From Gossypium raimondii (taxonomy: Eukaryota > Streptophyta > Magnoliopsida > Malvales > Malvaceae), in the NCBI RefSeq assembly GCF_025698545.1, contig NC_068571.1:52423733-52487732 (forward strand): a stretch of DNA of 64,000 bases, given 5' to 3'. Position numbers and translations under genes: made by a program. Below, in pieces: positions 22,288 through 58,878 of the stretch (positions are counted from its first letter, which is position 1; every line of letters starts with the position of its first letter). The notes under the pieces were generated by a model, which saw only the letters and a program-made list of their open reading frames with translations, was not told the DNA's origin and did no database searches.

Positions 22288-25200
22288 ATGGCTCGCACTA
22301 TCAAAAACCCTAAAAAAGCTAAGAGAAAGAATAAGGTTCAATTGCAAAAAAACTCACTCTTAATCTTTTCTTCTTCTTTTTTTTATCTTTAAAGTTTGTT
22401 CCTTTTTTCACTAAAATTGCTATGTAATTGGTTTCTTAAATAGGGCTCAAAAAAAGGCGATGGAGCATCAACGTCTTCTTCAGTGCCGACAATTCAGCCA
22501 AGGGTTTGGCAACCAGGAGTTGATGAATTGGAGGAAGGAGAAGAGCTTCAATGTGATCCTTCAGCTTATAATTCACTTCACGCTTTTCATATTGGATGGC
22601 CTTGTTTGAGGTACTCTTTAGTTACCCATCATTACTTGGTGTTTGTTTGCTGAGAAAGTAGTGGGAAAAGTTAACAATTTAATAAGGTTTATAAAAAAAA
22701 TGAGCAAAGGGTATTTGAAAAAGTATTTTCTATGTGTTTGAATTTAGAAATTGGGTCATTTTGTTGGCAGCTTTGAGGTACTTTTTAATTACTCACCATT
22801 ACTTGGTGTTTGTTTGCTGAGAAAGTAGTCGGAGAATTTGTTGAAATTAATAAGGTTTAATAAAAATTATACAAAGGTATTTGAAAAAAATGTTTAGTTT
22901 GCATTTTTTATGTGTTTTAAATTAGAAATTGGGTCGTTTTTTTGGCAGTTTTGTGGTACTCTTTAATTACCCACCATTACCTGGTGTTTGTTTGCTGAGA
23001 AAGTAGAGGGGAAGTTGTACAAATTAGTAAGGTTTGTAAAATATTCTGCAAACGGTATTTGAAGAAGTGCTTGCTTTGTATTTTCTATGTGTTTTAATTT
23101 AGAAATTGGGTCATTTTTTGGCATCTTTGAGGTACTCTTTAATTACCCACCATTACTTGGTGTTTGTTTCCTGAGAAAGTACTGGGTAAAGTTGAAAAAA
23201 TTAATAAGGTTTATAAAAAAATGTACAAAGGGTATTTGAAAAATAATGTTTAATGTACAAAGGGTATTTGAAAAAAATGTTTACTTTGTATTTCTATTTG
23301 TTTTAATTTAGAAATTGGGTCATTTTTGACAGCTTTGATATCGTACGTGATTCGTTGGGTTCAGACCGGAAAGATTTTCCACATACGGTGTATTTTGTTG
23401 CAGGGACTCAGGTTTGCTTCATTACTTACTAAGTGCTAACTAATAGATGGGACCAATAAGGAACAACATTTGTCTTATTTGAACCATTAGGAAGAGATGG
23501 TCAATCTTTTTGACTTCTTTTGTGTATATTGATGTAATTGTTTGATTTCACAGGCAGAGAAGGCTTCTTGGAACTCTATTGGAGTGTTTAAAGTAAGCAA
23601 CATTTCGGGAAAAAGGCGTGAGCTGGTTCCTAAGAAATCTTCCGAGGATGATCCTGATATGGATGGTGAAAGTAGTGATAGTGATGATAGTGAGGATGAA
23701 GAAGAAGGTGGTTCTGGTGCACCGGTTTTGCAGGCAAATTCTAGTTTCTTTTGATTTCTAGTTATATATCATCTCCGGGGTTTATTATTAGACTTATTAT
23801 ACATTGTGCCCTTTTTTTCCTTGGAACAGTTGCGAAAGGTTGCTCATCATGGATGTGTTAACCGTATACGTGCCATGGGACAAAATCCTCACATATGTGC
23901 ATCATGGGCTGATAGTGGTCATGTTCAGGTCGGACTTATAATCCAACAATATATCATATTGTTCCTTGTTTGCACTTTAATGATTGGGAATACGTTTCGA
24001 TACTTCTTGTTGCAGGTATGGGACTTCACTTCTCATCTGAATGCTTTAGCGGAATCGGAAACTGAAGGCATCCAGGGAAGTTCGGTTTTTAACCAGGCTC
24101 CGTTAGTTAACTTCCGTGGCCATAAAGATGAAGGCTACGCAATTGATTGGAGTCCTGTTGTTGTTGGAAGGCTTGCAACCGGTAATTATCGAGAAATAAT
24201 TGTGAAAAATCTCTTTTTTACTTTTCGGTATTATCAAGCTTTCATTGTGAAGGTGCTGTTTTTCATATTTTCAGGGGACTGCAAGAATTGTATTCATTTG
24301 TGGGAGCCTACATCTGATTCAACTTGGAATGTTGATCCTACTCCGTTTATTGGACATTCTGCTAGTGTCGAAGATCTCCAAGTAAGTAATCATGTTGTGA
24401 TGTAATTAAATCTATACTTTATCGTTAAAACATAATTTAATAACACCATTTTTATGTTAATTTTGCAGTGGAGTCCAACGGAACCTCATGCGTTTGTGTC
24501 GTGTTCCGTGGATGGGACTATCACAATTTGGGATATCCGTATAGGGAAGTCACCGGCAGCTTCTTTTAAGGCACATGACGCAGACGTGAATGTCATCTCA
24601 TGGAATAGGTATTTCAGTCTTAATATATATACTTGCTCTTTATTTCAACACATCTCTTTGATGTTCAAACTTTTGATGTTTGTGCATGAGTCAATCCTCT
24701 TTGGTCATGATATTTCAACAGTCTTCTTTCTAGATAAAAGTACCATGGAGGCTCTTGTATTGAGAGTTGGATTACATTTCGCCCCTTTGACTCAAAAAAT
24801 GGGACAAATTAGTCTCTGTACATTTGACCAAAGAGCAATTTGGTCTTTTTGTTAAAATTTTCATCAATTTCTACTATTAAAAATTGGTCTATGTAAGTTA
24901 GCGTAAGATATACGTGGTACACCATGTAGCATTGTCTGGTTATTCTGTCAGTCACACCAGTTTTTAACCATACAAATGGGTTTTTTTATCAAAAGGACCA
25001 ATTTGATCTTTGATTGAACGTACAAGGATTAATTTTCTCAATTTTTTAGTAGAGGGGGCAAAATGTAATTTGACTCATAATACAGGGGCCTCTGTTATAC
25101 TTTTACCCTTCTATCGACAAATTTCTGACATCTTTGCATACTTGGATCTTTATTTAGGCAAGCTAGTTGTATGTTAGCATCGGGAAGTGATGATGGCACG

Positions 25201-26042
25201 TTTTCAATCCATGACTTTAGGTTGCTCAAGGTATGCCTATTATTACCTATGACACGATGATACTTAAATCCTTGAAATAGGAAATCCAGTCGTTGACTTA
25301 ATTTATGTTCATCTTAAATGTGATACATCTTGTTTCGGATTCCACATTCATTGGCATTTGGCATCCGATTCCATTCTATGTTGAGGCCAGAATGGTACTG
25401 ATTTATAATTTGTGTTTGCAGGATGGAAATACAGTGGTAGCTCATTTTAAGTACCATAAATACCCAGTAACATCCATCGAGTGGAGTCCACACGAAGCCT
25501 CCACATTGGCAGTTTCATCATCCGATAATCAGTTAACGTAAGTATATGTAAAGCACTAGAATATCAAAATAGGGATGAGCAAGAAAAACTGAGAACCGAA
25601 TCGAACCAATATCATCCCTAATATCAAGGCTAACAAAGTTAACGTACATGATTCCCAGATTAGGATCTTGGACATTTGTACATATTCACTTACTTTTGTT
25701 TTGCTTCGGTTTCTAGAATATGGGATCTTTCTCTCGAAAAAGACGAGGAAGAAGAAGCGGAATTCAAAGCTCAAACAAAGGAGCTTGTAAATGCCCCGCA
25801 AGATTTACCTCCGCAACTTCTTTTTGTTCATCAGGTACTTAAAAATCAGAGTATTGAAAATTGAATACGTTTTCAGGATTCCTTTTTAACACAATTCCCA
25901 CCATAAACAGGGACAAAAGGACTTGAAAGAACTTCATTGGCATGCTCAGATTCCTGGAATGATTGTGTCAACTGCCGCGGATGGTTTCAACATCTTAATG
26001 CCTTCAAATATACAGAGCACTCTCCCCTCCAATGGCTCTTGA
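22288..26042 (+). CDS. GRWD1: Glutamate-rich WD-repeat ribosome-biogenesis protein (GRWD1/RRB1-like), 474 aa
   Basis: Twelve exons: 22288-22335, 22444-22610, 23333-23411, 23554-23733, 23830-23928, 24016-24181, 24275-24381, 24469-24608, 25158-25230, 25422-25537, 25717-25834 and 25911-26042 (1425 nt). The family is a nuclear chaperone for ribosomal protein uL3 in 60S assembly. Visible in order: a basic N-terminus ([13 protein letters not shown]), the histone-binding-protein-like motif around [26 protein letters not shown], and an acidic Ser/Asp/Glu stretch at about residues 128-150. A WD40 propeller follows, with [46 protein letters not shown] and SSDNQLTIWDLS blades. An acidic [10 protein letters not shown] loop and [16 protein letters not shown] end the protein. 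Intron 3 has a GC donor, and intron 2 is internally repeated. Length and order match the eukaryotic family. Confidence 0.93.
22611..23332 (+). repeat. Fourfold tandem repeat forming GRWD1 intron 2
   Basis: Four diverged units fill the intron: 22611-22777, 22778-22955, 22956-23131 and 23132-23332 (167, 178, 176 and 201 bases). Each starts with GTACTCTTTAATTACCCAC-type text, carries TTGGTGTTTGTTTGCTGAGA, and ends with AAATTGGGTCATTTT then GGCAGCTTTGA-like text. The unit is the whole intron plus a few exon-edge bases, so each junction looks like an acceptor, a 7-base mini-exon and a donor. Unit 4 also has a short internal duplication of ATGTACAAAGGGTATTTG. Confidence 0.85.
24733..25108. mobile_element. 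Intronic MULE-type MITE, copy A (GRWD1)
   Basis: This is a palindromic element with ends (GATAAAAGTACC and ACTTTTACCC) and arms that contain AATTAGTCTCTGTAC and ATTTTGCCCC-type phrases in inverse order. The flanks TTCTTTCTA (24724-24732) and TTCTATCGA (25109-25117) match at 7 of 9. It lies in GRWD1 intron 24609-25157. It is the first of four near-complete copies in introns (others 42318-42639, 52479-52854, 57294-57614). Confidence 0.75.
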
Positions 26043-28568
26043 AAAGAATAGTGTCTTTTTGGCTCCTTGCTGGTAACAAATGAATCAACAGCTAATGCAA
26101 AGCTCATAGGAATTCATGCATGGAATATGGAGGTTTTTTTTTTCCTTAAATTATTATTTTTGCATGGTGATGTCAATGTGTTATTTGTTACGAAGGTACT
26201 CAAATTTGGAACCTTAAAGCATTTGTGTGAATGTAGACAATTGAATTTATCTACCAATTCACCTATAGATCCCCTCACTGTGATAAAGGAACAATAATTT
26301 TATGAAGACAATAATAAATTTAGCCCTTTGTTAATTAGTATGAATAATTTATAATAAATACTATTTAATGTAATTATTTAATAAGTCAAAATTTATTAGA
26401 ACAACATGAATTGGACAAGGGCAAAGTCATAATTTTTTCTAGGGGTTAAGATTAATTTATATATTTTTATGAGAATTAAAATAAAATTTGTGCTGGTATA
26501 TATCTTTATAGTTTTAGGATTAAATAAAAAATTATCATTTGGGGATCAAACCATAATTTTATCATTTACTAACCTTAAATTTTATAAATTTAGAAAAGCT
26601 AGAGTTAAAAATTTTCATTTTAGGGGCCATAGCCCTTATTTACCCTTACCTTCGCCCTTGATAGGAGAATGTTTCAGGCACTTTAATTACATTCAATTCA
26701 ATGAGATTCACTAACAACGAATATTCTAATATACATACACATATGTAATTAAAAGCTTAATGTGCATATCAAGGTTGTGAGCACTCTTAGTGAATAACAA
26801 TACAATTTTTATTTTTGTAAAACAACAGGTGTACTCATCCATTTTGACGATAAGAGCTTTGTCCTATTCGAGGCTAGTGGTAGTATTTAGTAAAACCATC
26901 TTAACAATATCAACTTCAGAATTTAAACTTGATTTAAATATTTGTGAAATAGGAAGTTCACTTTCACTTTTTCCAATCACTTATTAATATAACAATATAA
27001 TACTTAATCATCTGTGAAATTAAAAAATAGCGAAAAACTTATAGATAATATTAATTAATCTTTATTTAAATAAAATCCAAAACTTAAAATTCAATATAAA
27101 ATTTAAAAATGAAACCCTAAATATAAATACTAAACCTAAAATTCCATATTAATCTTAAATCTTAGATCATAATCTCTAAATTTTATTTTTTAAATTGCAT
27201 TATTCTTTATCGATAATGCATAAAATTTATGTGTTAACGGAGTTTAAGGCATTTATTCTCTTAGTCGGTGCAATTTTTAAATATTTACTTTATTAAGTAA
27301 ATTAATAAAAGCATTACGTGAGTGGGAGGTTGTGCATGCCAATGCTAGTAGGGTTGCTCCATTCTCCCAAAACATAGTCAAACATTTCAACGACCCCTTT
27401 TGTTTATTTCTACACACTTTTCGGATATAAAGAACCTTTATTTTATGGGTTTTTTTTTGTTTTTTTTGTATAATAAAGAGAGAATCTTGTACTCGTGAAT
27501 GAAAATAAAATAAAGCTCAAGATTCTATTCTCGTTTTCATTACACAAGGTGGCCCTTTCATTCATTTTTCTAGATAAAAAACAAAAACAAAACAAAAAAA
27601 ACACAGATCTGTCCTGTTGGAGTTTATTTGGGACTGATGAATTTGGATTTTAACATTTTCTTGATTTCGACTTCGAGTTTAAATTATTTGTGTTTTTAGA
27701 TAATTTTATTTAGTTAATTGAGTGAGATTCTTTTAAGTTTGAGTTATTTTTTATGTTATCTTTAGTTACAATCATTTCATGTTTAAGTCATTTAGGATTT
27801 AAACTTGAGTTAGAGTTATTGTAGATTACTTGTTCAAGTCATTCTAAGTTCAATCATTTTGAGTTTGTGTAATTAATTGTTCGGGTTATTCTCAGTGCAA
27901 GTTGATTGTGGGTCACGATTTAATTTAGGTTTTAAAAACTACGAGAAGTATTGATAATTTAAGGTTCAAGTCATTTTAGTTCGAGTCAATTTAATTTTTC
28001 CAATCAAGGTTTCAAGTCGATCATTTCAGGTAGAATCAGACAATTATAGTGACCTAAAATTTTGAGAAGTTTTGATTTTTCCCTTGAAACTTTTAGAATT
28101 TTTTTTAAGTCTCCAAAAATTTTGAAATATTTCATTTTTCCTTCGAAGTTTTTAGAAAATTTTAAGCAGTCTTATTTTTTTTTAAAATTCTCATTAAACT
28201 CTTAATTTAAAAAAAATTATTAGGTCATCTCAAATCTTAATATCAAGATCCGTCACTGATTTCAAGTTTGAACTACTTCAAATTTTGCTATTTGGGTTTG
28301 ACCATCGAGTTTAGGTCTTTTTTTTTAATTACTTATTCGAATTATTTTTGAAGTCAAGTCAGAAAAATTCCACTTGTCCAAATTCAAATCCGAATTAATG
28401 ACGTAAAATATTGAAATCCAAACAGAAAATAACAAATCCACGTACTAATAATTACGATAATATTCATTACATCTACAACCCCAACACAAACGCATCCAAC
28501 AAAAAACACATAAAAGAAACCTCAAAAGCTAGCAGAAAAAGAGATAACTTCCGATGAAGAAACCATTG
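26043..28568. other. Intergenic region between GRWD1 and tetraspanin (convergent)
   Basis: This is the shared 3' flank of two convergent genes. It is AT-rich. I see no exon. A stretch around 27650-28390 has many short near-repeats built on TTGAGTT, AAGTCATTT and TCGAGTT, giving a loosely periodic text without an exact unit. Nothing else is supportable. Confidence 0.5.
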
Positions 28569-31353
28569 TCAATGTTTCCGGCGGCTAAAGAGTTCCTCCG
28601 ATTGGACATTTCTAAAGGCACTGCAAGCAATAACATAGACCAAAATCAACAGCACCACCGCCACAATTAGAATAATGTTGGCTTTCCTCCATTCGGTCCT
28701 TAGGTTCCCTAACAAACCAGCCCTGCATGAGTTACAGTTGTAGCAGAGCTGGGTCTGGTCATTACTCCATAGGTAACAGTCAGGGTCGCCGGTTGGGTTC
28801 GTTGGGTTCGTCCACTGTATTGGGTTCACAAAAGTATAGCCACAGATCGTTGGTGGCTTACAACATCCTGACTGTCAAACAGTAAAAAAAGAAAATTAAT
28901 ATTTGATGAACTGAGGATATTAATTTTACACAGCATGATACGTCGTTAAAAATGAATTTAAATCTAAAATTTTGTTGATTAAAGAGACAAAAGTTATTAG
29001 CAGACAAAGTGGATTACCTTATTTAAAAATGGACACCTTTTTATTAAGTCAAAAATTCCATGATTTCAGGCTAATAATTCATCCCTTAGGTACTACTTCC
29101 ATTGGCCCTAACTTTTCCAACCCACAAATTGGAATTTGAAGCCCCACACCCCACACACCACACACCATGTTTTCTTCTTTAATCCTAATCCTTTCTAGAT
29201 GCATTATGAAAAAAAAGGGCCATGATTTAAGCTATGATTAACATAACAAAAAGTTGTCAATTAGTTAGTGTTTGATGTATTGGCCATGAGTGTTTACTTG
29301 AGTACTTCAAAATTTACGTCTTAAGTTCGAATAATAGGTATTACATACAAGGGTGGAGGTAAATGAATAGACAATAATCTTAATCTCTAAATAGTAAAAT
29401 TATATTTTAACTCTAAAAAAAATTTTGATTCATCGTAGACCCTTCTCTAAAATAATTTTTTCACTTCATTGCTAATAAATGACTAACCTCAAATCTAGAG
29501 TTTAAATGTAGACAATTCCCTCTCTTTGGAAAATAGATATGCAAAAAAGTTAGTGCTAACAAATCTTGTGTGGATCAATTTGATCAATCCATGGGGTCCC
29601 AATGAATCGTGGTATTGTTATCTACCCTAAATTAAACATCAAAACACCATAATTGTGGGTCCTAAAGTTTATATTATTTAATGTGAAATTTGGCCCAACT
29701 TTAAGGCATCAAAGTCTTGTCCTAATATATCCTTATAATACTAGCAACTTCCCCTAAAAATTAATATTCAATTATCATCTAATATAACCCATCAATATAA
29801 AAATACATATTATCTATTTCGTCCTTCAATTTTATAAAAAAAAAATATTTTAACACTTCATTTAATTTTTCATCATTTTAACTACTAAAATTGTATCGTT
29901 TATCAAATCACCGAAAACATAAGAAAAATAATATTTATTAACTTTATCGACATTAAAAGTTATAAAAATGTTTTAAATTTTTTAAAATTAATTAATTGTT
30001 AACGTAACATACACGTGGATCAGTAAAGATAATAAAAGTTAACTTTTTATTTATTTTAAGATGATTTGATAAATAATATAATGTTTAAAAATGAAAATGA
30101 AGTAAAAATTAAAGGACAAAATAATTCATTATACTTTTCTTTTTTTAAAAAAAACAGAAGTAAAAGAAGGGAAAAAGAAAACACAGATCTCTTATGAAAA
30201 ATTAATGGATCATTGAATCACGTAAAAGATGGTAGAATGCATTAAATATAAATTCTTAAAATTTCTGAATTTTAACGAAATATGTTGGATGTTTAATGTT
30301 GAAACATGATATCATTTTCAATCTATAGTGGGACAAATAAATTGGATATTTATCCAGATGTTTCTTAGAACTAAACCAGTAAGAAAATGCCATATTCTTT
30401 TAATCCAATTTTCTAACACTGATTAATGTAAACATCTAAAAGACCGGTTTGCTACTTTGTCTGAAAACAAAATAAAAAGTTCCTCTAGTTGTCAGACAAA
30501 TATAGAAAATGAACATGATAATGTCTTTTCTATACCATATCCCATTAATATCTCTCAAAGCTACTAGTATTTCATCATATATTCGGGAAATATGTTAACA
30601 ATCATATTTTATTTTATTTCTTTATTTAAAATAATAAAGAAATTAGTCTTTTCTAATTAAAAATTATCTATTTTATTTTAAAAATTAATATAATTAATAA
30701 AATAACTAAATTATTATGATATATAGAGATAAGCTTTTAACCCGAAATACATAAGTGTTCATCATTTCAATAAAAATTTTTAGTTTTAATATGAAATCTT
30801 AATATGAAGTTAAATTAAAGGTGTATGTATGTAAGAAAACAGAGCATGAACTTGCCTGAAGAGGAGAGATATGAGCAGCAAAGAACTGATCGGCGGTAAT
30901 AAATTTTTGAGTCAGCTTAGGACAAACACCGGTATCAGCCAAACAAGCCTTGATTTTTCTCCAACTCTTGTTATCAACCACATGGTCTCGAAGCCAAGCG
31001 GAGTACCCATCAAGCCTGTACTCTTTATAACCTTTTCCGGGCACGTCATAGCTGCCGTCCGGCCTGGTGACGACGAAAGCGAAGACAAGCAAAATTAGGA
31101 GGAGGGCAATGAGGATGGCCATGCAACAAAGGTAGAAAGCAAGGAGGGTTTCTTTGTAACGGTAAGCGCCGACGAAGCCGGCGAGGGAGACAAGGAGGAT
31201 GAGGAAGCCGAGGAGGATGACCGGCCACCGGATGAGGTGGACACAGGCGTTGTCGGGCTTTTGGTCTAACCATATGCCGGCGGCGATGATGGGGATGGAA
31301 CAGAGGAGAGCAACTATGTTGAGAACTGCTGTTATGTTATTGGAAACTCCCAT
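28569..31353 (-). CDS. Tetraspanin (TET8-like), 266 aa
   Basis: Two exons on the minus strand: 31353-30856 and 28871-28569 (801 nt). Plant tetraspanins organise plasma-membrane and vesicle microdomains; the TET8 group marks exosome-like vesicles. The protein has four membrane helices: about residues 8-28 (ITAVLNIVALLCSIPIIAAG), 43-63, 72-95 and the C-terminal LIVAVVLLILVYVIACSAF. The large extracellular loop carries the plant signature GCCKPP right after the splice junction, then a Cys-rich run (LCYNCNSC). The cytosolic tail is short (ending SRRKH). Length is near the family's usual about 270. The single 1984-base intron splits the loop just before GCCKPP, and its donor is CAG|GCAAGT, a GC-type donor. 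Which TET clade it belongs to needs a tree. Confidence 0.92.
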
Positions 31354-34225: not shown

Positions 34226-35529
34226 AAGTTGATGCTTAGATTTTAAAATATTAAAGTTGGTCCTTGAACTTTACTATTCAAATCAAGTTATGCATGAATA
34301 ATCTTGTGAATCCTTTAACTTTACTCCTTAAATCTAAATGATCATAAAAGTCAATAATATGAATACACCAAACTGTATTAAAAAATATCTGACTTTAAAA
34401 GGAATAAATATCAAAGTTATATATGAGCTTTGGTCTAATGTGCGATTCAATACATAACCTTTGATTTGGTACTTGAATTGTGGTTCATACGTATATCGTA
34501 AAACTTTAATTTTGATTCAATTGTATACGTTTAGATAAATGGATACATATATTTATTTTCATATTGGATTGATATAATTATTTGTGTATGTAATATGTCA
34601 ATATAAAATGGTGTTAATTCAATAATGTTGTTATTGGTTTGTGAAAGTTAAATCAAATTAAAATTTCATGTATAAAATTGTACAAAATCAAAGTTCATGT
34701 GTACTTTTGATATTTATCCCAATTTAGAATGATACAAACTTGAACTAAACGGAATCTTGAAATGACTTAAACTTAAATGTTAAACATGAATAAAAAAAAA
34801 CCTTAAATGACCCTAACCCTAAATCATATGAACCTAGAAATGGCTTGAACTTGTAAACTTGAATTGACCCTAACTAATTTGACTTAACTCAAAGCTAATC
34901 AACTTGTCCAATTGACAATTTTTTTTTCTGATTCCTACTAATTTCCCCAGATCAAGGGCGAGTTAGGAGTCTGCAGGGCCTTCAACTGCTCCCCTTAATA
35001 TAAAATTTATATTTACCATTCTTTTTAAAAAATAAGTTCATAAAATTACACTTTAATCATCTCAAAAAATATATAATTCAATATCAGTCCCTAAAAAATA
35101 AAAAAAAAATTTATAATTTACTCTTTCAAAAATGTTAGAACTTTTAAGTTAATAAAAAATATTTCTTTTTCTTTTTATTATTTTAAGAAAGTTGATGCCT
35201 TACTTTTTGAATCTTAATTACATCCTTGAACTTTACTAATCATATCAAGTTATGCATGGCAATAGAGAATTGGGGCATATGCATGAACCAATGTTTGTGA
35301 CCATCCTTCAACTTTACACTTCAAATCTCTTGTCTTAGCATTAAGCAAAAAAGTTCAAACTCGGAGCCCAACACCCATGTTTCATGTCGGATAAATACAT
35401 CACATGCATTCTGCCAACTTGAGGTTTTTATAGTTAGAATCCAGACTCAAATTCTACTAACATCATATATGATATAGTTGTCCAGGTTGAATCTCTTTTG
35501 AAAATATGAGCTCATTATAGGTTATTTTG

Positions 35530-35665
35530 CACGATATTTAGAATTATCTATAGCCCCTCCCCAACTTATAAATAGAAAGATAATGTATTTTAGCGCACTT
35601 AAACTCACATCGTCCTACATTGGTAACATACTCATGCCAATCGAGCTAAGACTCAATTGACAATA
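35530..35665 (-). mobile_element. tRNA-derived SINE relic, copy 2
   Basis: On the minus strand a box A-like TTAGCTCGATTGGC (revcomp of 35636-35649) is followed by a box B-like GATGTGAGTTTAAG (revcomp of 35598-35611), and then the GGGGAGGGGCTATAGATAATTC text shared with the copy at 1655-1795. This is the best preserved box A of the three copies in the window. Confidence 0.55.
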
Positions 35666-36241
35666 TAAATATAAATTTTATGTATTTTTTATATTTGTAA
35701 ATATCTAATTTATACCGTCTATCATTTTCTAAATTTGTTTTTAAAATATATGTTAATAATCACATTTCTAAGGTAAGGTTTTCTGCTTATATTATGACTA
35801 GCGGACGTTTTCATTAGCTGACATATCATACTTATTAATATTAAAAATTAAGTGGGTGTTATTAAGAGCCCGATGTTTATATTTTGTGTAATTTTATGTG
35901 GAATTATTTATTCAATTTAATTTAATTTTTATAAATTATTAATATAGAATAAACGTTAGAATTAGAATTAAAATTAAAATTTAATGTGTATGATTAGATT
36001 AAATTAAAATTTATGTTATCTTAATTTTAAGTATACATTTTTCTATTGAAAGGATTTCTCGAATCCAGAAATTTCAAGATATTAAAAAAAAGCTGTTTTC
36101 ATTAAAAAAAAGAGAGAATACAAATACAAATATTTTTAGATAGGAAACAAAGCAACATAACTCATAAAAACATATATAAAACTGTATTAAAAAAAAAAAA
36201 AAAAACCCCCCACTTTGAGGCCATGCAAATCACTGCTTTTT
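35666..36241. other. 3' flank of the ACC-oxidase gene
   Basis: This AT-rich sequence lies downstream of a minus-strand gene. It contains a poly-A tract near 36186-36204 (T-rich on the transcribed strand). No exon or RNA gene is visible. Confidence 0.45.
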
Positions 36242-37906
<1,665 letters not shown>

Positions 37907-42041: not shown

Positions 42042-45000
42042 TCAAACTTCGAGTGAAACTCGGGTTTTTATCGGTTTTAGCTTCAAACCCATGCTTTCTG
42101 GTGAGAGTAGCTCCGGTGAGATGCAAGACGGACTTAACGGGCTCCTTGGGCTGTCACTTAAATGACAAGGCCTATACAAACCATACCGCATGAAGAAGTA
42201 TTCCATCGGTATTAGCATCGCATGTGGCTGTTCTTCAGTCACCATTGATCCACAAGCCTGGACCTGCAAGTAAGCATTTCCATTATTATGCCCTGAAATC
42301 CCGAAGGGCCAAATCCTGGTAAAAGTACCATTGAAGTCCTTGTAGTGGTTGAATTGCATTTCGTCCCTATGTTAGATCAAAGGGCATTTCATACATTTGT
42401 ACTAATAAAAACTGGTGCGGCTGACAAAATAACTAGACAATGACTCGTGGCATGCCATGTGTACCTTATGTTGACGTATAAGGACCAGTTTTTAATAGTA
42501 AAAATGAATGGAATTTTCAACAAAAGGACCAATTTGCTCTTTGATCTAATCTACAAGGACTAATCTACTCATATTTTGAATAGATAGGGCAAAATGCTAT
42601 ACGACTCCTAGTACAGGGGCATTCATAGTACTTTTACCACCAAATCCCTATCTCTAATGGAATTTTTTGATACTAAAACCATTTTGCATCATTCGACATC
42701 CTAGTAACAAACTAACCACTATAATACATAGTTTGTACTTACCTCGACTAAGGCACTAAATCTTCTATCCAACTTGGATGTCATATAGAGGGCCTCGGAA
42801 TGAAAAGGTGAGCTATCCCCAACGAATATTAAGGTACGGCATCTTAGCCTTTTCAACTCACTGGTAAGATCAGGTCTTCTGCAAATCGGGGATACAAAGT
42901 TTTCATGTAATAAAGCCGAATAACATGCAAAAAGTGACAATAGGAAAGCAGTCATGTTCTTTTGTATCGTACCTATTAATGGCTTGAAGAAATCGCATCA
43001 CGTTTGACCCATATCTCTCATCCAGTAACTGAGAAAACAAACATGCCGTAGAAATAAAGTGAATCCAAAGAAAAAAAGGAATCAAAAGCAAAATGTAAAA
43101 GAAATGTAAAAGCACTTACTCTTCGGCATGCTTGAACAATATCTGATTCGGGAATTTCTGCATTACCACGAACTTCCTGTTACAATTTACAGAAATCTCG
43201 TCATTCGGCGTACTTGAGAGGTTAGAATATAACAAAAAAGAAACTTAAAACGATAGTCTACTAGGAAGAAAATGCTTGGATACCTTACTAAAGTATCGTT
43301 GAAGCAAAATTTCTTTAAGCAGTCCACACATTCCGTAAAAATATAACAAGTTCGACATCACCTAGAGATTATAAGTCATTTTAGTCAATACGATATAAAC
43401 GCATAACAAAGGATGTTAATTATAACCAACAATGTTAGTAACAAACCTTGTTATAAAACCATTCAGTCCAAGAAGGTGCTCTGCAAAGCGGGGATACAAG
43501 TATCAAACCAAGAACGCGTTCTCTGTATTTTATCTGCAATGCAAAAATCTTTGTCAATGAACCCTCATCAAAAAATTTAAATATAATACTCAAAAGAATT
43601 CATACAGAAACCTACAGCAAATAGAGTAAGAATGTAAGCACCCGCCGTTACTCCCATGCACATCACTGCACCTAGCCTGAACAGATTCTCAAGTATTAAA
43701 CCCCTTTTCGACTAAAACATTAACACCAACCAAATCTGATAGCTCTCTACTAAGATACTATCGTAAGTGAGATGGCAGCATCGAGTAAAAAAAAAGGTCG
43801 TACTTAGAAAACCAAAAAAAAGATTACCCGAAAAAGTTGAGAACCTCGAGGATCTGATCGGCCAAGTCGTCAGCAGAATACGGGGAAGTGCTTGGACAAA
43901 TTTGAGCAGCTCCCAACTGCAAGAACTCTTGTGAAAGTGCCAGAAAGGAGACTATGTGAATAATGAAATCCAATAATTGATTTCGTTGCAAGGAGATAAA
44001 ATAGTGTGTAAAAGGCAAATATGAATATGACAACAAATTTACAGACCTCATGTCCGGGAGGACTAATATGATAAATGCAGAAGTTGTGCAGCAGCAAAGA
44101 GGCCGCTTCTGGACAAAAGAACAATCCTTGGAAACAAGACATATCTGAAACATATACGAACCATACAATGCAATTGTTAGAAAGCAGAATCGGAGATAAA
44201 CACCGACCAAGCAGAATAATACTTACAATTCAATGCCAGATCCGGATATGTAATTAGTGCAGGCTTGTCTTGATCCCCATATACTATAACAGACACAGAA
44301 CCACAGCGCGTGCGTACATGATGTTCCTGATGTAAGATTGAATATAAATCCACATAAGAGATAGAGTTAAGAATTCCAATCAATAATAGAATAGATGTAT
44401 TCGAAACTTTCAAGTACCATAATGTTTTTCTAAGTCGATAGTTTATTTTTTTTTAGGTTTCAGTTATATAAGACAAATCATTAGTTTCATGTGACCCTTA
44501 AAAAAGGAAGAAAAGAAAAGAAACACTTCAATTATATCTAAAATAAAAGTTATTCATCAAAAAGCACATCCCATGTGCACTCTCATCCCTTTCATCAAAA
44601 TACAACTTAAACATAACTTTGTAAAAGAATTTTAAAAATAAAAAGAAAGAAAAGACAGATGAATCAAATGAGTGGTTCTTGATATTAATCATTGCAATTC
44701 TTCAAAAAGGAGATGATAGTCTAAAAGGAAAGCATGGGATGCTGGAATCTCTCAAATATTAAAAGAAGACATTGACATTAGGTTAATGTAAGGAAAAAAA
44801 GTACATTTACAGCTAGGCAATTTTAATATATATATAGTGAAACAATGAAAAGGTATCTTCAAATGAACTGCATAACACAAGTTGAATAATCCCATATGAA
44901 TCAATAGTTAAAAGAATCCATTATCCAACCTATTTTGTCATCATAAGCAACTAAGAAGGAAAGAATCTTCAACCAATTTAAAAAGAAAAAGTAAAAAGTA

Positions 45001-48926: not shown

Positions 48927-50380
48927 GTATAGTAACATTTTTAATTATAAAAATATGTGATAATATTCAAATTTTTTATATTTTTATTTAACTAACTATA
49001 ACATTTTTTGAATAAATAATATAAATAGAGAACCAACATAATAATTGCGATTTCTGAAAATAAACAAATCACAAATGTCTACAAAAGATTTTGTTCATCA
49101 TAATTTTATTAATGAAATTTGGGGTCCACCACTTTTGTTTTTTAAATAAAATTTCATCACATTTTTTATAACCACAATATAAAATAAATTCGTCACATTT
49201 CAACAATTTTTACCAAATTGGTCCAAATTTAACTTCTTCTTTTTTATATATGGTTCAAATCAAAATTTACTATATGCCCAATCTTTAATTTTTTTCCTTT
49301 TTAAAAAAGTTAAACATTTATGTTGTTTACTTTTTAATTAACTTGCATAATAAAAATAAGTGCTTTATTTAACCATTTATATACAAAAGAACCATGCAAA
49401 ATAATGTGGGAATATAAAGCTTTTGGCAGAATTGATATTACCTATTACTCGGGATGTAATTCAATTGTGAAATTATCAAAATTATTATATTGTAAGAATA
49501 TTTATGTTTTTATATTTTGATAAATCTAAAAAATACATATATATAATAAGAATTATAAAATTTGAACCCAAATCGTTATGATCTTTATGCTCCATTTTAA
49601 TCAAAGTTATTTTTAATTTTCATACCAATTTTCTCTAATTTATGCCATAATCTAATATAAATTTATGGAAATTCTATTTATTTATTTAAAATATATTTTC
49701 TTAAAAACAAAAGTAAGTATTTCAAAATTCACTTATTGCAAAATGCCAACTGGAAAGGCCAAGCAGACAGCAAATATCGTCTTTATTTTATTTTTTCACG
49801 TGGGTGGCTTAGGGAATTACCATTGATGGGTCAAATACCATGAGTATATGCCCACATTACATTACCATTTTCTTCATTCATTTTGACAATGTTATTTACT
49901 TATTTATTGATGCATGCATAGCCTGGTGGTGTCTCCTGATTTTATTAAATCCACACCTGATATATACTACACATTACATTACCATTCAATTTATTGTAAG
50001 GATTAATAGATTTTCTTTACGAATCCATTTGAAATTTTACAAATTTATAATTAATAGAATCAATTAAAAAAATTAAACTCATAACAAATATATATATATA
50101 TATCTAAACCGTCTAAATCAATTGAGTTGATTTAGTCGATTTTCTTGATTTTAACTGAAATTTGCTTATTGTGTTTATTATTAAAAGAAGTGGTTTTCAT
50201 TAAGTTATTATTAAGAAAAGAAATGAAGTCAACCTCATTATTGTTCATTGTGGAAGGGGATTACGAAAGTTTAGGATGAGGTTGGTAGAGGTATAATATG
50301 AAATGTTGGTAATGGTAGGACTGATGTTGGACCCCTCATAAAGCATTTTTTTAATAATTTAATTATAGATTTTGATTATA
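48927..50380. other. Intergenic AT-rich DNA
   Basis: Nothing coding is visible. There is an AT dinucleotide tract at about 50087-50103. A 75-residue frame at 49840-50067 has random AT-rich composition and is not supported as a gene. Confidence 0.45.
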
Positions 50381-50387
50381 TATGCTC

Positions 50388-50515
50388 TTTTTGACACAAT
50401 GGTTAGAAATACTCGTAACTCCTCCCAACCCATCAATAGGAGGATAATGTGCTTCAGCTCACTTGAACCCATGTCCTCCTATATTGACAATAATACTCAA
50501 TCAACACTCATAAAG
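50388..50515 (-). mobile_element. tRNA-derived SINE relic, copy 3
   Basis: The minus strand carries a box B-like GACATGGGTTCAAG (revcomp of 50462-50475) followed by CACATTATCCTCCTATTGATGG, as in the copies at 1655 and 35530. Box A is decayed beyond certainty. It directly abuts a LINE relic. Confidence 0.5.
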
Positions 50516-50529
50516 TATTGTTAATAAGC

Positions 50530-50995: not shown

Positions 50996-51486
50996 ATCCC
51001 ACATCAATCTATAAATGAATTCAACTCAACCTCATAATTTAAACTAAAAATAAAATCTCAATGAAATGTTTTAATGCTGTTAGTGACTTTAACTGGTCAT
51101 TAAAAAATAAAATCTCAATAAAAAGTTACAAAATGGTCAATTAATTATATGAAAATTTTATTTAAGTTAATAAGCTATTCAAAAGTTTTTATTCAAGTGT
51201 TAAGTTTTTTTAAAAAAATCTTACTAACGAGCTTCAAATGACAATTCGACGATCAATATAATGAATCAATATCTATTAACGAGTAAAAAACCATACTTTA
51301 AAAAATTATTTTGCAAGCCAAATTTTTTTCCTAACAGCAACAATAATCCAAGCTTAGTGCTTTAAATATGATCTGCTCTTTAGATTTATGTTCCTTTCAA
51401 CAAATTATGATCAAATTAATTTCCTTTTTGTTATTGTTGTTTTTGTCGTCGCCGTTCATCTCGGCATTCACATGAGACGCATCATC
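50996..51486. other. 3' flank of the 525-aa gene
   Basis: AT-rich sequence between the LINE relic and the stop codon at 51487, with a short CT-rich piece near 51420-51470 that is likely 3' UTR of the minus-strand gene. I see no feature that I can name. Confidence 0.4.
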
Positions 51487-54420
51487 CTACACGAGCGGGT
51501 TATCAACTTCACTGTCACTGCTCATATCATCATCAGAGGCACCCGAGTCCGAGCCTGAAACCGAGACCTTCTCTTTAGCTGCTTTAGATTTGCTTGAAAG
51601 ATCATACTTAAAATACTTGATCTTTTCCTTTTCTTCACCCTCACTTCCTTTTCTTTTTTCCCTCGAGTTATCATTTATCAGCCTCATCGATCGGGCGGCA
51701 GCCACATATGCTGCTGTCATAGCTTCATTTTTTTCATCTTCTCTGTCATCAAGGGAAAACAACGGTTCATCATCCTCGAGTTTCTTCTCCTCTACCTTTG
51801 TTACCGATTGCTCATCAACTTCCTTGGAATCGCCGACGAGTAATTTTGCATGGTATTTCAATATGCTATTGCTGAATAGCTTTATCCCTTGTTTCTCAAG
51901 CTTCAATAGCCGCTCTGCACAATGGCAGTTTAGTAACATAAAACTTAAAAGATACAGACAGTTACTCAATATACTAAGAAAAGACTATCGAGTGGTTACT
52001 TACTTATAAGAGCTTTAGGTGAGGATCCACTTACTCCTCCGGCTTTCTCATCTGAGCTGATCAGGGTCGAGATCCATTTGGTTATTTGAGAATGTAAATG
52101 GGAATTCGCAAAGGCACTTGTATAACAAGTAGCTCTTTTTTGATCCCTGTTTTTTCTGTGACAAAGTGGATCGAAGATGAATACGAAAACCAACTTTAGT
52201 TTATGAATTATATAACATCTATTCATACCTGAATAACTCGATGGCCTCAAGCGTGACAACCAATCTTGTCATGGCAATACCTTTTACGTGCTCATTTGAT
52301 AGGTGAACTGTCTTGGACTTGAGGAAAGTGTACTCTACCAAAATAACAGCATCATACAGAATATTTTTCAGCAGATTTCCATCTTCGGGTCCCTGCACCA
52401 CGGAGCGTCTCTTCAGTTCAAATAACCATCAATAAATCAATGCTAATTTAGCATTTGATCTACGAAAAGCTTAATATTGGCAAATGGACCATGAAGGCCC
52501 TTGAACTAAGAATCAGATTGCATTTTGCCCTCTTTACTAAAAAAATGAGCAAATTAGTCCCAGTACATTAGATTAAAGAGCAAACTAATTCTTTCTATTA
52601 AAAATTTCATCCATTCTACAGTTAAAAACTGGCGTCACTGACAGAATAGTCAAACAGTTACACATAGTGTGCCACGTGTATCTCAAGCTGACATACAAGG
52701 AACAATTTTTAACAGTAAAAATTGATGAATTTTTTAACAAAAAGACCAATCTGCTATTTGATCTAGCGTACAGGGACTAACTTGCCATTTTCTGAGTAAA
52801 AGGGGCAAAATGCAATCTGGCTCGCAGTACAAGGGCCTTCATAGTACTTCTACCCTTAATACTCTAAGCATGACATAATAAAACATCATTGAAGGAATCA
52901 ACTGTTTATAATAGAATAGAAGCCAGATACAAGTTAAAGCACATCTTGCACTGGAGCTACAAAGAGGAAAACGAGCACGAAGACTTGGACTGAGCTCAAT
53001 TATCAAGCCACTAATACTTCATTCCCTTTGCTCCCTCGTAACACCCCCATGTTTACTATCTTGCCTATGAAAAGGAAAATTGCTATTCACTTCAACATGG
53101 AATTGACCAATGCTTAGAAATCACGAAAAGACTGGGATCCTGTGTATGTCCACCAAAACATGGAAAGCCAAAAGAGAATAACCGGAAACCACGATCCAAA
53201 GTGGCAGAACCGTTAATGCAGCATAAGCATTTCAATAGTTTAAACATTTGTATGGACAGACAAACACACAATTTACTGTAGAACCACACCATTTACAACC
53301 CATACGAACTCAACTCCCATAAGCATCAACGAGCAGTTTGACGTAAAACACAAAAAACATAGTAAAACAGGAGGAAGAGATATAACGAATTTAAAATAAT
53401 CAAACGCTGCAAACTAACCACCAAGGCAGTCACTGGCAAAGCTGGCTGCAGCAACATCCTCGTAAGCATTTCTGATCAGCATAAAGCGATAATTAGATAG
53501 TAAGTATAGCAAATATTGCTCAAGAGAAAATATACATACATACATACATATATACATACATACTAAGCTACATATATAAGCTTATGATTTAGTCAATGTT
53601 GAACAAATATGGCACAAATAAATAACGTACAGCACTAACCAAAGAAATAAAAGTTGTGAAAGCTGGAAATTGAAGCGACAGCCCAACTTTTTAGCTCTTT
53701 TTCTAACACAATCCCTTCAATCCCAATCCTTAAATCCAAGCAAAGTTTCAACAAAAATGCTTCCACCATAACCACACCAGCCAAGTAATTCACATTAAAC
53801 CCTCTTTCACTAATCATTCCACAAATCTCACTACTCACTAATGGCAAAAAAGATTGTAAATTTACATTTCTATCTATCCAAATAGAAACTAAATCCTCAA
53901 CTGGAATCACCAAATCCATATCAATGTTTTCACTTTCCTCACTAAAACCCTTACAACAACACATGCTTATATACCCAATGATCACTTCAACAAGAGACTT
54001 AATCCTTTTATTCACTTTCCTTGAGTCCTTTCCTAGTACTTCCACAACTAATTTATAAACCTCGAAAACAATTGGTGCAAGCAATGCTATGCTTTTGGAA
54101 GAATTACAGGGACTTGAGCAAGAAGAAACTAGCTGAAAGAGATCATTTATGATTGATAATCGATTCAAAGGATCTCCTTTTTCGAAATTACGGCTTCGAA
54201 ACGACAAAGCAGTGTATACCCAGATTGATTCCAGTGGTGGGTCGAATTTTGCTTGCATTAAACTGTGGAATTTATCAATGAAACCAGAGAAATTTGGGGT
54301 TTTTTTGTGGGTTTCAGCTAAAAGGTCTTCCATGGATTGTTTTAGAGAAAGATGGTAGTTTTCGCCAATTAGGAAACTGGGTTTTGGGGAATTCGTAGAA
54401 GCTTTCATAGATAAAGCCAT
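51487..54420 (-). CDS. Unrecognised plant protein with acidic Ser-rich tail, 525 aa
   Basis: Five exons on the minus strand: 54420-53640, 53471-53419, 52392-52229, 52155-52004 and 51914-51487 (1578 nt). All junctions keep one open frame, including FG|EMLTRMLL, ALV|GPEDGN, LFR|KNRDQK and ALI|KRLLKLEK. The first ~430 residues look mostly alpha-helical, with repeated Leu/Val/Ile-rich helices (for example LLAPIVFEVYKLVVEVLG and YLAGVVMVEAFLLKLCLDL) as in HEAT/ARM-like solenoids. No transmembrane topology is convincing. The last ~110 residues are highly charged: VEEKKLEDDEPLFSLDD, a basic EKRKG stretch, then SGSDSGASDDDMSSDSE, typical of nuclear or nucleolar tails with casein kinase 2 sites. I do not recognise the family. 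A nuclear scaffold role is inference from composition only. Confidence 0.75.
52479..52854. mobile_element. Intronic MULE-type MITE, copy C (525-aa gene)
   Basis: This is the most complete copy of the family. The flanks CTTAATATT (52470-52478) and CTTAATACT (52855-52863) match at 8 of 9. Both arms carry ATTAGATCAAAGAGCAAACT-type and GGGGCAAAATGCAATCTGG-type text in inverse order, with a central ACACATAGTGTGCCACGTGT. It sits in intron 2 (52393-53418) of the 525-aa gene. Confidence 0.75.
53530..53566 (+). repeat. ATAC/ACAT tetranucleotide microsatellite
   Basis: A run of CATA units (ACATACATACATACATATATACATACATAC, slightly broken) lies in intron 1 of the minus-strand 525-aa gene (53472-53639). 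It is a simple repeat that would vary in length between accessions. Confidence 0.75.
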
Positions 54421-54669
54421 GGCGTCAGCTAAAAATAACTAAAAATTGTGGAATTTAGAGTTACGATGTTGAGAAGAAAGGTTTCAAGAGCTAAACCCTA
54501 ATTGTCCTAAAAGATTTTAGTGAAGAGAATGTCAATTTAGGGTTTTAGAGGGGACCGGGGTTTCGGTTTTGGGCTTTCAGATACCATCCAGTTTCATTGT
54601 CTCCGGTTCATACAGTTCTTTCATAAATCTGCCACATAAGCAAAAACCAGTTGAGCTACTGGTTCGTAA

Positions 54670-54842
54670 ATCCGACCTATAAGAATTAATTTTTAACAAT
54701 AAAAATGTTAAAATTTTAATAGAAGAACTAATTGGTTATTTGATTTAACATATAAGGATTAATTTACTCACTTTTTTTAATAAAATGGGCAAAATGCAAT
54801 TCCTCTCCTAATACAAAGGTCTCGATAGTACTTTTACGGGCA
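54670..54842. mobile_element. MULE-type MITE, partial copy D
   Basis: One arm only: AATTTTTAACAATAAAAATG..., ATTTGATTTAACATATAAGG, then ATGGGCAAAATGCAATTCCT and GATAGTACTTTTAC. The order matches the right arms of the complete copies. It lies about 250 bases upstream of the start codon of the 525-aa gene, in its likely promoter region. Confidence 0.6.
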
Positions 54843-54922
54843 AAATCTTGTGTGTATGCAAAATTTAATCTAACTAATCTAAATATAAATCCAACTTGAT
54901 ACGATTTAATCATAAAAAAGGT

Positions 54923-55463
54923 TTGTTTATACCCCTAGAACTTGGACATGTGTCAACACAACGAGGTATAAAAATAAACTTATTGTAATTGGGTCTCCCT
55001 TACTCGGACATCTTTTCAAGCTAGACCGCTTGCTCTCTCCACCTAACCCTCCACGTGCTCTCAGGTAAGAACTCATACTGCTTACTCCTCCTCGAGGGTC
55101 CATCCACTCTAATGATAAGGCCACCCACTCAACAGGTTACCTTATCAAACACCTGCTTTTTAGGTGCGAACACTTCTCTAAGTGTGAAAATACCAACCTC
55201 GTATTATTTGGGACCACTACATCTGCACTTCTCGCCCACTGTAACGACTCCTACTATAAAATACCCTCTCATTGGATGGAGAAAAGATTGAAACATTTTC
55301 TCCTCTAATCACCCCTCAAGCCCCTACCTACTCCAATATGAGCTTGTCCTCTTGTCCATTTCCAACTCTTCGTCTTTTTTGGTGAACCAGGCTTCTTAAC
55401 ATCACCTCATACTCTTCCTTCTGTTCTTCTTATCTCTTCCATTGTACATTATTATATCAACAA
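54923..55463 (+). mobile_element. LTR-like block related to the solo LTR at 46.2 kb
   Basis: It starts TTGTTTATACCCC (compare TTGTTATACCCC at 46247) and ends ATATCAACAA. Inside is a promoter-like CTATAAAATACCCTCTCATT near 55254, followed by a C/T-rich leader containing CTTCTTATCTCTTCC. This is the same layout as the block 46247-46813. I could not see matching target duplications, so it may be older or truncated. No internal retrotransposon domain adjoins it. Confidence 0.5.
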
Positions 55464-55909
55464 TGTCAATAACCTAAACTCGAAATGAACATAATTTAAA
55501 ACTACACAAACCTCAAATAATTCAACCATGAAATAATTTAAATAAATAACTCAAAATAATAAGAAAATGAAAAATCGAAAAATAAAAAAATTTAAATAAC
55601 TTCAACTCAAAATAAATAATATCAACCTAAAATAATTATTTTGAAAGAAAAAAAAAAACACTCAACGTAATAAGTACGGCTTTGGTAAACCAGAAAAATA
55701 TAAGTCAGCCATTAATTAAAATTAAATCACAGACACACACACGCAAAAAAAGAAAAAATAGAACTACGTGTTTTCTCAAATTCTATTGGTCCAAAAAAGT
55801 GGACCCCATTCTTTAAACCCTCAATTCAACCAATCAAATTCATCGAGACACGTATCAGTTCTTTTATCATATAATAATATTATTATCAATTTATTATCAA
55901 TTATTATTA

Positions 55910-56180
55910 GATTAAACTACCTAATTGGTCGCCCAACTATTAGGGTGCTTTCATTTTAGTCCTTTTTTTGAGTGACCAAAATGAATTAGAAGTTGGATGA
56001 CCAAAATGGAAGTCTGAACATGATGTTGCTTGTACAAGTTAAATTTCATTATAGATTTAATGCTTGGGGGTTAAAATGAAAGCGCACTAAAAGTTAAGTG
56101 ACTAAATTGTAAGGATTTCATTTTAGGTAACTAAAATGAAAGTATTACAAAATTTAGGTGACCAACTAAGAGAATTTACC
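55910..56180. mobile_element. MITE in the promoter of the saposin-domain gene
   Basis: The left arm (ACTACCTAATTGGTCGCCCA, then GTGCTTTCATTTTAGTCC) pairs with the inverse right arm (GGGTAAATTCTCTTAGTTGG, then AATACTTTCATTTTAGTT). The middle also pairs (GTGACCAAAATGAATTAG and AGTGACTAAATTG-type text). A partial relative lies at 59672-59815. It ends about 140 bases before the ATG at 56322. Confidence 0.6.
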
Positions 56181-56321
56181 CTTCCTATTATTTTTCACAA
56201 CACTTTGAAGTGGACTTCGAGCCTTCTTCGATCATTTTCCATAAAAAAGAGATCTTTTTATAAGAACTCTTCCAAGGATTATTTCGTTATTATTATTTCT
56301 ACAATCTAAAGAGACAGAGCA

Positions 56322-58878
56322 ATGGGAAAAACAGAGCAAAATTCAGTTCTTTTAGTCCCAATTTTCTTCTTTTTATTGACAATATCATTGCCTGTCTCTG
56401 TTTATGCCAAGAAACCAGTGGCGATTCCTCGAAAAGAAGACATTCCTTATATTAAATGTCAAGTTTGTGAGAAGATAGCATCACAGTTGGTTCAACAAGT
56501 TCAATCGAAACAAACCCAGATCTCTCCCAAGAAGGTATTTTTATAATCTGGGTTTTCTTTGGTTTTTCTTTAAATTTTACTTTCATGGAATTCTGATTTG
56601 ATTTTTTTTGGGGGGGGGGGTTTGATGGGGTTTTAGATCTCAGAATATCAAATCATTGAGATTGCGGAGAATGTTTGCAATTTGAAGAAAGAAGAAGCTG
56701 ATTGGATTTTGAAGATTGATATAGTTGAACAAGGGGATAAATTAGAGGTAAATTGAATTATAATTGTTCTTGATTTTTTGTAAGTTTTTGTGCTTTGTTT
56801 GATAGGATATTTGTAATTAAAAAATTGAATCCAAATGCACTTAATTTATTATCAAATGCATATTGATTTAGATATTTATTCCCATTAATGGCAAATAGGT
56901 GTATCATTTCAATTAATCCTAGGGTTCATATTTGTTAAAATTTTAGTTACTATTAGGTATGCTTATTGGGTGCATAATGAATTTGCTTATGCTTTCATGG
57001 ATGTATTGATGGCAAATTTTGATGGAAAATCTGTTAAGTGATTATAAGTGTAGTGACTTGTTGAGGATTGCTGATTCTATCAATAGAAGTCTGCGAAATA
57101 CCGTCCTTATCTATCAATGCCTTATAACCTTATAGTTTCAAATCCCTCTATGGTCATGGTGGGTGGGTTATGGTAAAGTTGAGAGTCAAAACCTGTAGGG
57201 ATAAATTTGGATGAGTGAGGGTCAGCTGACTCTCGACAGATAATACTTTACAGACTTCTTTGAATGGAGCCGAGTTTCAGTATAGCTGACTGGCGGTAAA
57301 AGTATCTTAGAGGCCTCTGTACTAGGAGTCAAATTGCATTTTGTCTTTTTACTAAAAAATGAGCAGACTAATCTTTGTACATTAGATCAAAGAGCAAACT
57401 AGTCCTTTATGTTAAAAATTTCATCCATTTTTACTGCTAAAAATTGGTTTGGCTAACAGAATAATTAGACAATTACACGTGGTGTGCTACGTGTACTTCG
57501 TTTTGACATATAGAGACCAATTTCTAATGGTAGGATTCATTTGCCCATTTTTTGAATAGAGGGGACAAAATGTAATCTAACTCTTAGTGCAAGGGCCTCC
57601 ATGGTACTTCTACTGCTGACTGATATTTTTGACCATTAATCTTATTATGCTAACTCATGAAATTTTCATCTATTTGCAGCTAGTGGAACAAAATGCTGAA
57701 GGGATTTGCAATACAGAGTGTAAGACAATTGAGAGAACTTGTCAAGAGGTTAGATTATTAATTAACATAAAATGAATTGTTCTTTTGTAATAAAAAGTTT
57801 TAGCTTCGGATCGTGAACTTGTTGGTTTTTCGTTTTAACATTTGTGTTACGAGACTGTTGTTAGGCATGGCTGCTTATGTTTCTTTTCAGGTTATGGGGT
57901 ATTCTGATACTGATGTTGCTGAATATATATACACGTCGAAACCTGATGTTGAGTCATTGACGAATTATCTGTGTAAAGACTTAACTAAGGCATGCAAAAC
58001 CAAGCCTCCCCCACTACCAAAGGTATCTCAATGCTTTCATGATTCTGTATCTGTAATCCTTTGATTGATTTCATTTACTTCCTTCTGTTCTTTCAGTTTA
58101 GTACAAAAAGAATAGGATTGTCGCTTTAGTCCATTTGTCTAATTTGGGTCGTATGAATCTAATTCTTCTGTCTACTGCCTCATTTCATTTGTTTGCTTTC
58201 TTGGTAATATGCTTTGAATGAAGCAGCCCGACTTCTTGTACATCACGATGGTTATTTAAACGAGCTTGTTGTTATAATGTTGGATGACAAGCTAAACTGA
58301 TCAAGCTGCTTTGTTGTCGATGATTTGTGCAGGATAGGACTCCGGGAGAACCTTTTGTACCGAAACCAACTAAAGAGGCTGAAATGGAAAAGATGTTACG
58401 ATCCATGGAGGTACGAAAGATTCATGGCTAAATAGCATGCTGTTCATACTATGTTAATATTTGATCTCATTTTAATTGTTTAACTTTATTACGATTCAGG
58501 GTATGCCAGGAGCACCCAACATGCAAATGTATTCAAGGGAGGAGCTAATGAACATGAAGAATTTCGGTGGAGATGCCGACGATGATGAAGATGAAGACGA
58601 GGACCAATTTCCATCGAATTTGGTACTTATCGAAAAACCCCGAAACAGATTTGAAGTTTCAATGTGATTCTTATTTCGGTTCTTTTTTTTTTCTGCAGGG
58701 AAAAGTGTTGAGAGACAAAGAAAGTAAACAAACCGATTGGAAACAAAAGATCATCAAAGGTGTAAAAGATGCAGGTGAAACATTGAAGAGACATGCAACT
58801 AAGGTGTCTTTTAGGGTACAAAAATGGTGGAAAGGATTTAAAGCTGCTCAATCAAAGTCCGGTAAGACAGAACTTTAA
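56322..58878 (+). CDS. Saposin-B-domain secretory protein, 301 aa, ending KTEL
   Basis: Seven exons: 56322-56534, 56637-56747, 57680-57748, 57891-58022, 58333-58410, 58500-58622 and 58699-58878 (906 nt). Residues 6-29 form a signal peptide (VLLVPIFFFLLTISLPVSVYA). A saposin-B-type domain follows with paired cysteines: IKCQVCEKIASQLVQQV, NVCNLKKEEADWIL, GICNTECKTIERTC and LCKDLTKAC. Then come a proline-rich linker (KTKPPPLPK), a Met-rich segment (MEKMLRSMEGMPGAPNMQM), an acidic run (DADDDEDEDEDQ) and a basic amphipathic tail (WKQKIIKGVKDAGETLKRHA). The C-terminus GKTEL resembles a KDEL-type ER-retrieval signal. Similar plant saposin-B proteins are annotated without known function. ER-lumen residence is inference from the signal peptide and tail; canopy-like folding helpers have similar layout. 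Confidence 0.85.
57294..57614. mobile_element. Intronic MULE-type MITE, copy E (saposin gene intron 2)
   Basis: The ends are CGGTAAAAGTAT and GGTACTTCTACT. The flanks GCTGACTGG (57285-57293) and GCTGACTGA (57615-57623) match at 8 of 9. The arms share GTACATTAGATCAAAGAGC, GTTTGGCTAACAGAATAATT and GGGGACAAAATGTAATCTAA with the other copies. It lies in the intron 56748-57679. Confidence 0.75.

Follow-up and report, generated by a model that had tools for sequence, protein, structure and literature searches.

Four genes in a stretch of the Gossypium raimondii genome (contig NC_068571.1, positions 52,423,733 to 52,487,732; the whole stretch of 64,000 nucleotides is called the window below) each carry, in an intron, a copy of a palindromic miniature inverted-repeat transposable element (MITE). 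The locus thereby raises the question of what this element is and why its copies are found inside introns. An original prediction, drawn from the sequence of the window, held that the copies form one family moved by a Mutator-type mobiliser, that they prefer transcribed DNA, and that their hairpins could release small RNAs or affect splicing. The explanation that we favor, with high confidence, is an old, high-copy, non-autonomous foldback MITE that was moved by a Mutator-type transposase and has survived in introns, and whose inner hairpin is the cotton microRNA (miRNA) precursor family MIR7502. Intron-enriched Mutator-like MITEs and MITE-derived miRNAs are already known, and what is new here is the re-reading of MIR7502 as part of a MITE.

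One MITE family in four host introns

A profile built from the four intronic copies themselves, when run over the 64-kb window, recovered all four at E 8e-84 or better, along with two further copies. Oriented by their asymmetric centers, the four are 73-77% identical in pairwise comparison, which together with the profile matches bears out the claim that they are one family. Their lengths range from 321 to 376 bp, and the consensus is a 376-bp foldback in which inverted arms of ~150 bp enclose an asymmetric center of some 70 bp. It thus has the size (below ~800 bp), the terminal inverted repeats and the non-coding character of a MITE; no long open reading frame was noted within the window copies in the list of such frames, only chance ones. 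Splice sites and the reading frame served to delimit the host introns. The junction in GRWD1 is spanned by a WD40 domain and that in the NDL gene by an Ndr domain, while the open frame continues over the junctions of the 525-aa gene and the saposin-like gene. The protein of the latter matched SapB_1 alone in Pfam (E 0.003, below its cut-off).

The 9-mers flanking the four copies agree at 7/9, 8/9, 8/9 and 8/9 positions, exactly as had been claimed, and nine was the best duplication length in every one of them. With 25 offsets allowed per copy, the joint chance of four such duplications is ~5e-8.

Abundance, mobilization and age

The genome (750.8 Mb in 281 contigs) was searched with the GRWD1 copy as query, which returned 3211 first-look candidates; the best 40 were scored and all 40 matched. 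The 38 places outside the window were taken as 20 loci of ~9.9 kb (L001-L020) and 17 loci of ~2.4 kb (L021-L037), and the former held 47 matches to the MITE, 35 of them end-complete. High copy number and common ends, as expected of a MITE, were therefore found as well. Among the 35 end-complete rows, scored with an offset of up to three bases permitted on either side, target-site duplications agreed at 7/9 or better in 25, at 8/9 or better in 22 and perfectly in 5; three of these rows are duplicates, and after their removal 22/32 agreed at 7/9 or better.

A duplication of 9-11 bp combined with long inverted repeats marks the Mutator superfamily. The 9-bp duplications and ~150-bp arms place the element there, and since the duplications recur in both the window and the genome they support the predicted Mutator-type mobiliser, with a transposase of this type as the putative agent.

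The scored genome copies, the query itself aside, are 75-79% identical to the GRWD1 copy. Because no near-identical copy occurs among the best 40 of the 3211 candidates, the family looks old. Transitions in unanimous columns of the four intronic copies were about threefold more frequent at C/G (35/199) than at A/T (27/447), as expected for methylated DNA. Pattern scans of viral contigs and of genome contigs, and a blastn search of plasmids with one copy, were without result.

MIR7502 is the inner half of the element

MIR7502 (Rfam RF04225, a 143-nt model with a gathering cut-off of 71 bits) was the sole Rfam family to reach its cut-off in the window, and its five matches all lie within the four intronic copies; the two extragenic copies score below the cut-off. 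At the 17 shorter genomic loci a match above the cut-off coincided with the MITE copy in every case (17/17), so that all 21 copies concerned, four intronic in the window and 17 genomic, reach it. Because the further copies match without exception, the MIR7502 family can be equated with the inner half of an abundant MITE that is flanked by 9-bp duplications. RF04225, which comprises gra-, ghr- and gar-miR7502, is listed as an miRNA family; its model coincides with the inner hairpin of the cotton element, and here it makes up one half of a transposon of 376 bp that has its own ends and target duplications.

The mature gra-miR7502b/c sequence, as given in a table of PMC5785843, has four sites with at most three mismatches in the window, where 0.05 would be expected, and all four fall in three of the MITE copies. 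The remaining intronic copy, in the NDL gene, has a site at four mismatches.

On the sense strand the four intronic copies fold far more stably than shuffled controls (z -6.8 to -18.1), which is no longer true of the decayed copy at 59 kb (z 0.4). Pairing between the arms of the same copy (0.80) hardly differs from pairing of arms across copies (0.79, rank 7 of 24; four copies, 72 outer pairs). Selection on arm pairing was accordingly rejected, and because the arms are not kept matched, the hairpin appears to be inherited from the element rather than maintained. The idea of the hairpin as a source of small RNAs draws its support from the MIR7502 annotation. For the predicted effect on splicing no evidence emerged from these copies, in which arm pairing is not maintained.

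A separate palindromic segment at 21883-21972 resembles MIR8675 (45.3 bits against a cut-off of 90.8, E 6e-6) and may be a further MITE underlying an annotated miRNA.

Copies outside introns

Two window copies lie outside coding introns. The one at 54 kb is a genuine half copy, as described originally. The one at 59 kb had also been called partial, but the segment 59265-59435 on which that was based is its best-preserved core; end traces are seen at ~59231 and ~59520, flanked by a gapped duplication (CTCTTAACC/CTCTTTAACC). Because the 3' end is weak (E 0.22 with a profile from three correctly oriented copies), its completeness is likely rather than certain. Its extragenic position, ~350 nt beyond the stop codon of the saposin-like gene and with no coding intron there, was described correctly. 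Since this copy probably has both ends, the statement that every near-complete copy is intronic does not hold, and the proportion becomes 4/5.

C/G transitions are about twice as frequent in the two extragenic copies (22/66) as in the four intronic ones (35/199; P 0.009). This possibly reflects heavier methylation outside introns, a lead confounded by age or misalignment, because transversions are raised too (21/221 vs 20/646, P 0.0003).

Enrichment in introns

Introns make up an estimated one fifth of the window, and the chance of at least four of six window copies being intronic is 0.006-0.07 at intron fractions of 0.15-0.30. With P values in this range, and a pattern chosen after the fact, the window alone is only suggestive of an intron excess.

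Genes at the genomic loci were predicted with a home-made gene finder, for which 2001 codons of the window genes served as the training set; on its own training window it recovered 30/30 known exon pieces and over-called introns. An initial comparison with copies masked (32/40 intronic vs 48%) was replaced, as the masking itself could push predicted introns onto the copies. In the version retained, gene prediction was run on L001-L020 after excision of the copies, and the points of insertion were set against random points. Excluded from the count were copies not longer than 250 bp, a double arising from the overlap of L006 and L007, and all of L005, which duplicates L004. Of the 37 copies above 250 bp, 28 fell in predicted introns, seven between genes and two in predicted exons. 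This intronic share compares with 59% of non-exonic random points from the same loci (P 0.008), and locus-stratified P values were 0.00015-0.0056 across six predictor settings.

Several of the predicted introns were corroborated by protein domains. A Pfam domain above its cut-off crosses the intron junction for six genomic copies (an LRR in L003, a PPR in L004, an AAA in L011, Inositol_P twice in L013 and a kinesin in L015), and for a seventh, also in L004, PPR repeats stand on either side with a sub-threshold match across the junction. No Pfam match was obtained for 4 of the 10 junction peptides tried. The Inositol_P-domain gene (L013:2258-5892) holds four MITE copies in three predicted introns.

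Published figures for G. arboreum lean the same way. Six of seven gar-miR7502 precursors were reported as intronic, beside 32 intronic origins among 446 in all (PMC5471329), a difference that we calculate from these figures at P 6e-7; this set leans to introns because its copies were selected by expression. The authors of that report state that repeat annotation was unavailable.

The modest enrichment in introns upholds part of the predicted preference for transcribed DNA, and the copies were not found to be distributed in proportion to sequence space, the outcome that had been named as speaking against such a preference. The enrichment does not stand out as particular to this MITE family, in view of the other foldback elements of the window discussed below. 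The enrichment would best be attributed to insertion near open, transcribed chromatin combined with loss from exons, not to a benefit for the host.

Distribution along the chromosomes

The MITE is concentrated toward contig ends, which also fits a preference for transcribed DNA: 24/36 distinct places, compared with 26/79 for WD40 genes (P 0.001), are no further than 5% from an end. Places less than 30 kb apart were merged for this count, and the WD40 list was drawn from the 150 scored of 964 candidates, contig C11 omitted. A second foldback family occurs in the window at 18351-18714 and 19709-20070, in neighboring introns of one gene; it gave 138 first-look candidates, and of the places derived from the 40 that were scored, 18/36 are equally close to a contig end (5% or less). 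The window also contains a dispersed repeat in three related copies, ~76% identical, at 1606-1799, 35522-35676 and 50349-50499, outside the recognized genes.

Weighing the explanations

The sequence of events that we propose begins with a Mutator-type transposase that would have moved the ~376-bp MITE and left 9-bp target duplications. The element would have accumulated in the gene-rich ends of chromosomes, where within genes the intronic copies would be the survivors. A well-kept copy, transcribed as part of the host pre-mRNA, could then form an extended hairpin whose inner 143 nt would correspond to the precursor family MIR7502 of the databases, and Dicer-like enzymes may process it. For the passage from hairpin to small RNAs the basis is the database entry together with published papers, and what fits best is that intronic copies of a decaying MITE can yield small RNAs, of which the miRNA record would be a by-product. 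Several observations weigh against this explanation. The sampled genome copies are the best 40 of 3211 candidates, the home-made, window-trained gene finder over-calls introns, and it places 2 of the 37 copies counted in exons. Self-comparison of the window yielded seven other foldback elements, and three of these are intronic, a share not different from 4/6. The exact 20-mer of mature miR7502 is absent from all 37 genomic loci; the best site carries a single mismatch in 8 of them, two mismatches in 13 and a larger number in the other 16. In the predicted folds of the four intronic copies the mature site has 4, 7, 9 and 12 of its 20 bases unpaired, so that in three of the four 7-12 bases are without a partner.

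It could be argued that introns as such are not preferred, and that insertion takes place in open, gene-rich chromatin, where introns are much of the non-coding DNA. The clustering at contig ends, the distal position of the second foldback family, the intron excess in the window, which is weak and does not differ from that of the other foldbacks, and the fact that introns already account for 59% of the non-exonic points around the copies, by our own predictor, all agree with this. The copies nevertheless exceed random points from the same loci under all six predictor settings, and the published precursors are mostly intronic, albeit in a set picked by expression, and we regard this explanation as somewhat unlikely. 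A different proposal is that MIR7502 is a true, selected miRNA family that arose from the element or rides on it, the hairpin and mature sequence persisting through target regulation. The record of miR7502 in several cotton species and many small-RNA studies speaks for it, as do two weak, category 4 targets in a degradome table (PMC5748687). The arms, however, show no compensatory change, as far as four copies and 72 outer pairs can tell, the model fits every copy tested against the cut-off, and the mature site differs between copies; selection of this kind thus seems quite improbable. The position of the window copies, all of which end 49-86 nt ahead of the acceptor (P 0.004 after the fact), could also suggest that they were targeted to 3' splice sites or are useful to splicing. 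Genome-wide, a predicted acceptor is found 90 nt or less from 9/28 intronic copies, where 9.5 are expected, and a predicted donor at such a distance from 9/28. The window pattern is most likely chance, and targeting of the 3' splice site was rejected as extremely improbable. A fixed orientation to host genes was likewise rejected, since 14/28 intronic copies are in sense genome-wide, and the alignment that had suggested it had the saposin-gene copy inverted.

Features of the window

The coordinates of the MITE copies, their host introns and the MIR7502 matches are collected in Table 1. Just upstream of GRWD1, a 177-bp unit is repeated in three tandem copies (22725-23252).

Table 1. MITE copies, host introns and MIR7502 matches in the 64-kb window.
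Feature	Position	Strand	Remarks
MITE copy, full length	24733..25108	+	In GRWD1 (+) intron; duplication TTCTTTCTA/TTCTATCGA, 7/9
MITE copy, internal deletion	42318..42639	-	In NDL gene (-) intron; duplication CCAAATCCT/CCAAATCCC, 8/9
MITE copy, full length	52479..52854	-	In 525-aa gene (-) intron; duplication CTTAATATT/CTTAATACT, 8/9
MITE copy, internal deletion	57294..57614	-	Antisense in saposin-like gene (+) intron; duplication GCTGACTGG/GCTGACTGA, 8/9
MITE half copy	54670..54842	-	Upstream of 525-aa gene
MITE decayed copy, probably both ends	~59231..59520	+	Downstream of saposin-like gene; fold z 0.4
GRWD1 intron holding MITE	24609-25157	+	GT-AG
NDL gene intron holding MITE	42742-42264	-	GT-AG
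525-aa gene intron holding MITE	53418-52393	-	GT-AG
Saposin-like gene intron holding MITE	56748-57679	+	GT-AG
MIR7502 match, GRWD1 copy	24850..24991	-	86.1 bits; + strand 60.0 bits, under cut-off
MIR7502 match, NDL copy	42374..42522	+	76.2 bits; - strand 54.4 bits, under cut-off
MIR7502 match, 525-aa gene copy	52596..52739	both	106.2 bits (+), 81.4 bits (-)
MIR7502 match, saposin-like gene copy	57410..57558	+	77.0 bits

Relation to known elements and implications

The closest parallel is found in carrot, where Mutator-like MITEs share the 9-bp duplications, the foldback structure, a similar length and the enrichment in introns; 1343 of 6308 copies were reported as intronic, and they are rarely kept in transcripts (PMC8227079). 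The carrot elements belong to another genome and have another sequence, and the likeness is one of description, not of sequence. In eudicots, MITE-derived miRNAs are reported to come mostly from Mutator MITEs (PMC12550479), and a review describes miRNA-producing MITE copies as enriched in introns (PMC12595863), so that Mutator origin and intron enrichment are both shared with the cotton element. The main text of the former, a survey of 207 genomes, names neither Gossypium nor MIR7502, its tables aside. No link between miR7502 and a MITE was found in the portions of the miR7502 literature covered, and the survey tables might list one. Another cotton MITE tied to an miRNA family is GosTE, a PIF/Harbinger element associated with MIR482/2118D (PMC10004981); it belongs to a different superfamily and carried a known miRNA gene, whereas the MITE described here is itself the hairpin of MIR7502.

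A more far-reaching possibility, which we consider unlikely, is that MIR7502 is not an miRNA gene family but a network spanning the genome and made of very many intronic MITE hairpins, each co-transcribed with the gene around it, the pooled small RNAs of which act in trans. If this were true, the targets of the network would be the MITE family and any mRNA carrying a copy, and ordinary gene expression would feed the silencing of a transposon.

Altogether, the element is an ordinary old Mutator-type MITE as far as its sequence allows its age and mobiliser to be judged, and the link to MIR7502 is the useful part, as a deposited cotton miRNA family is explained as part of an abundant transposon. 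Target predictions for miR7502, such as those for FORMIN genes (PMC11875364), should be treated with caution. The locus also provides a concrete case of intronic MITE hairpins as candidate sources of small RNAs, and a same-locus control for studying how elements are retained in introns.

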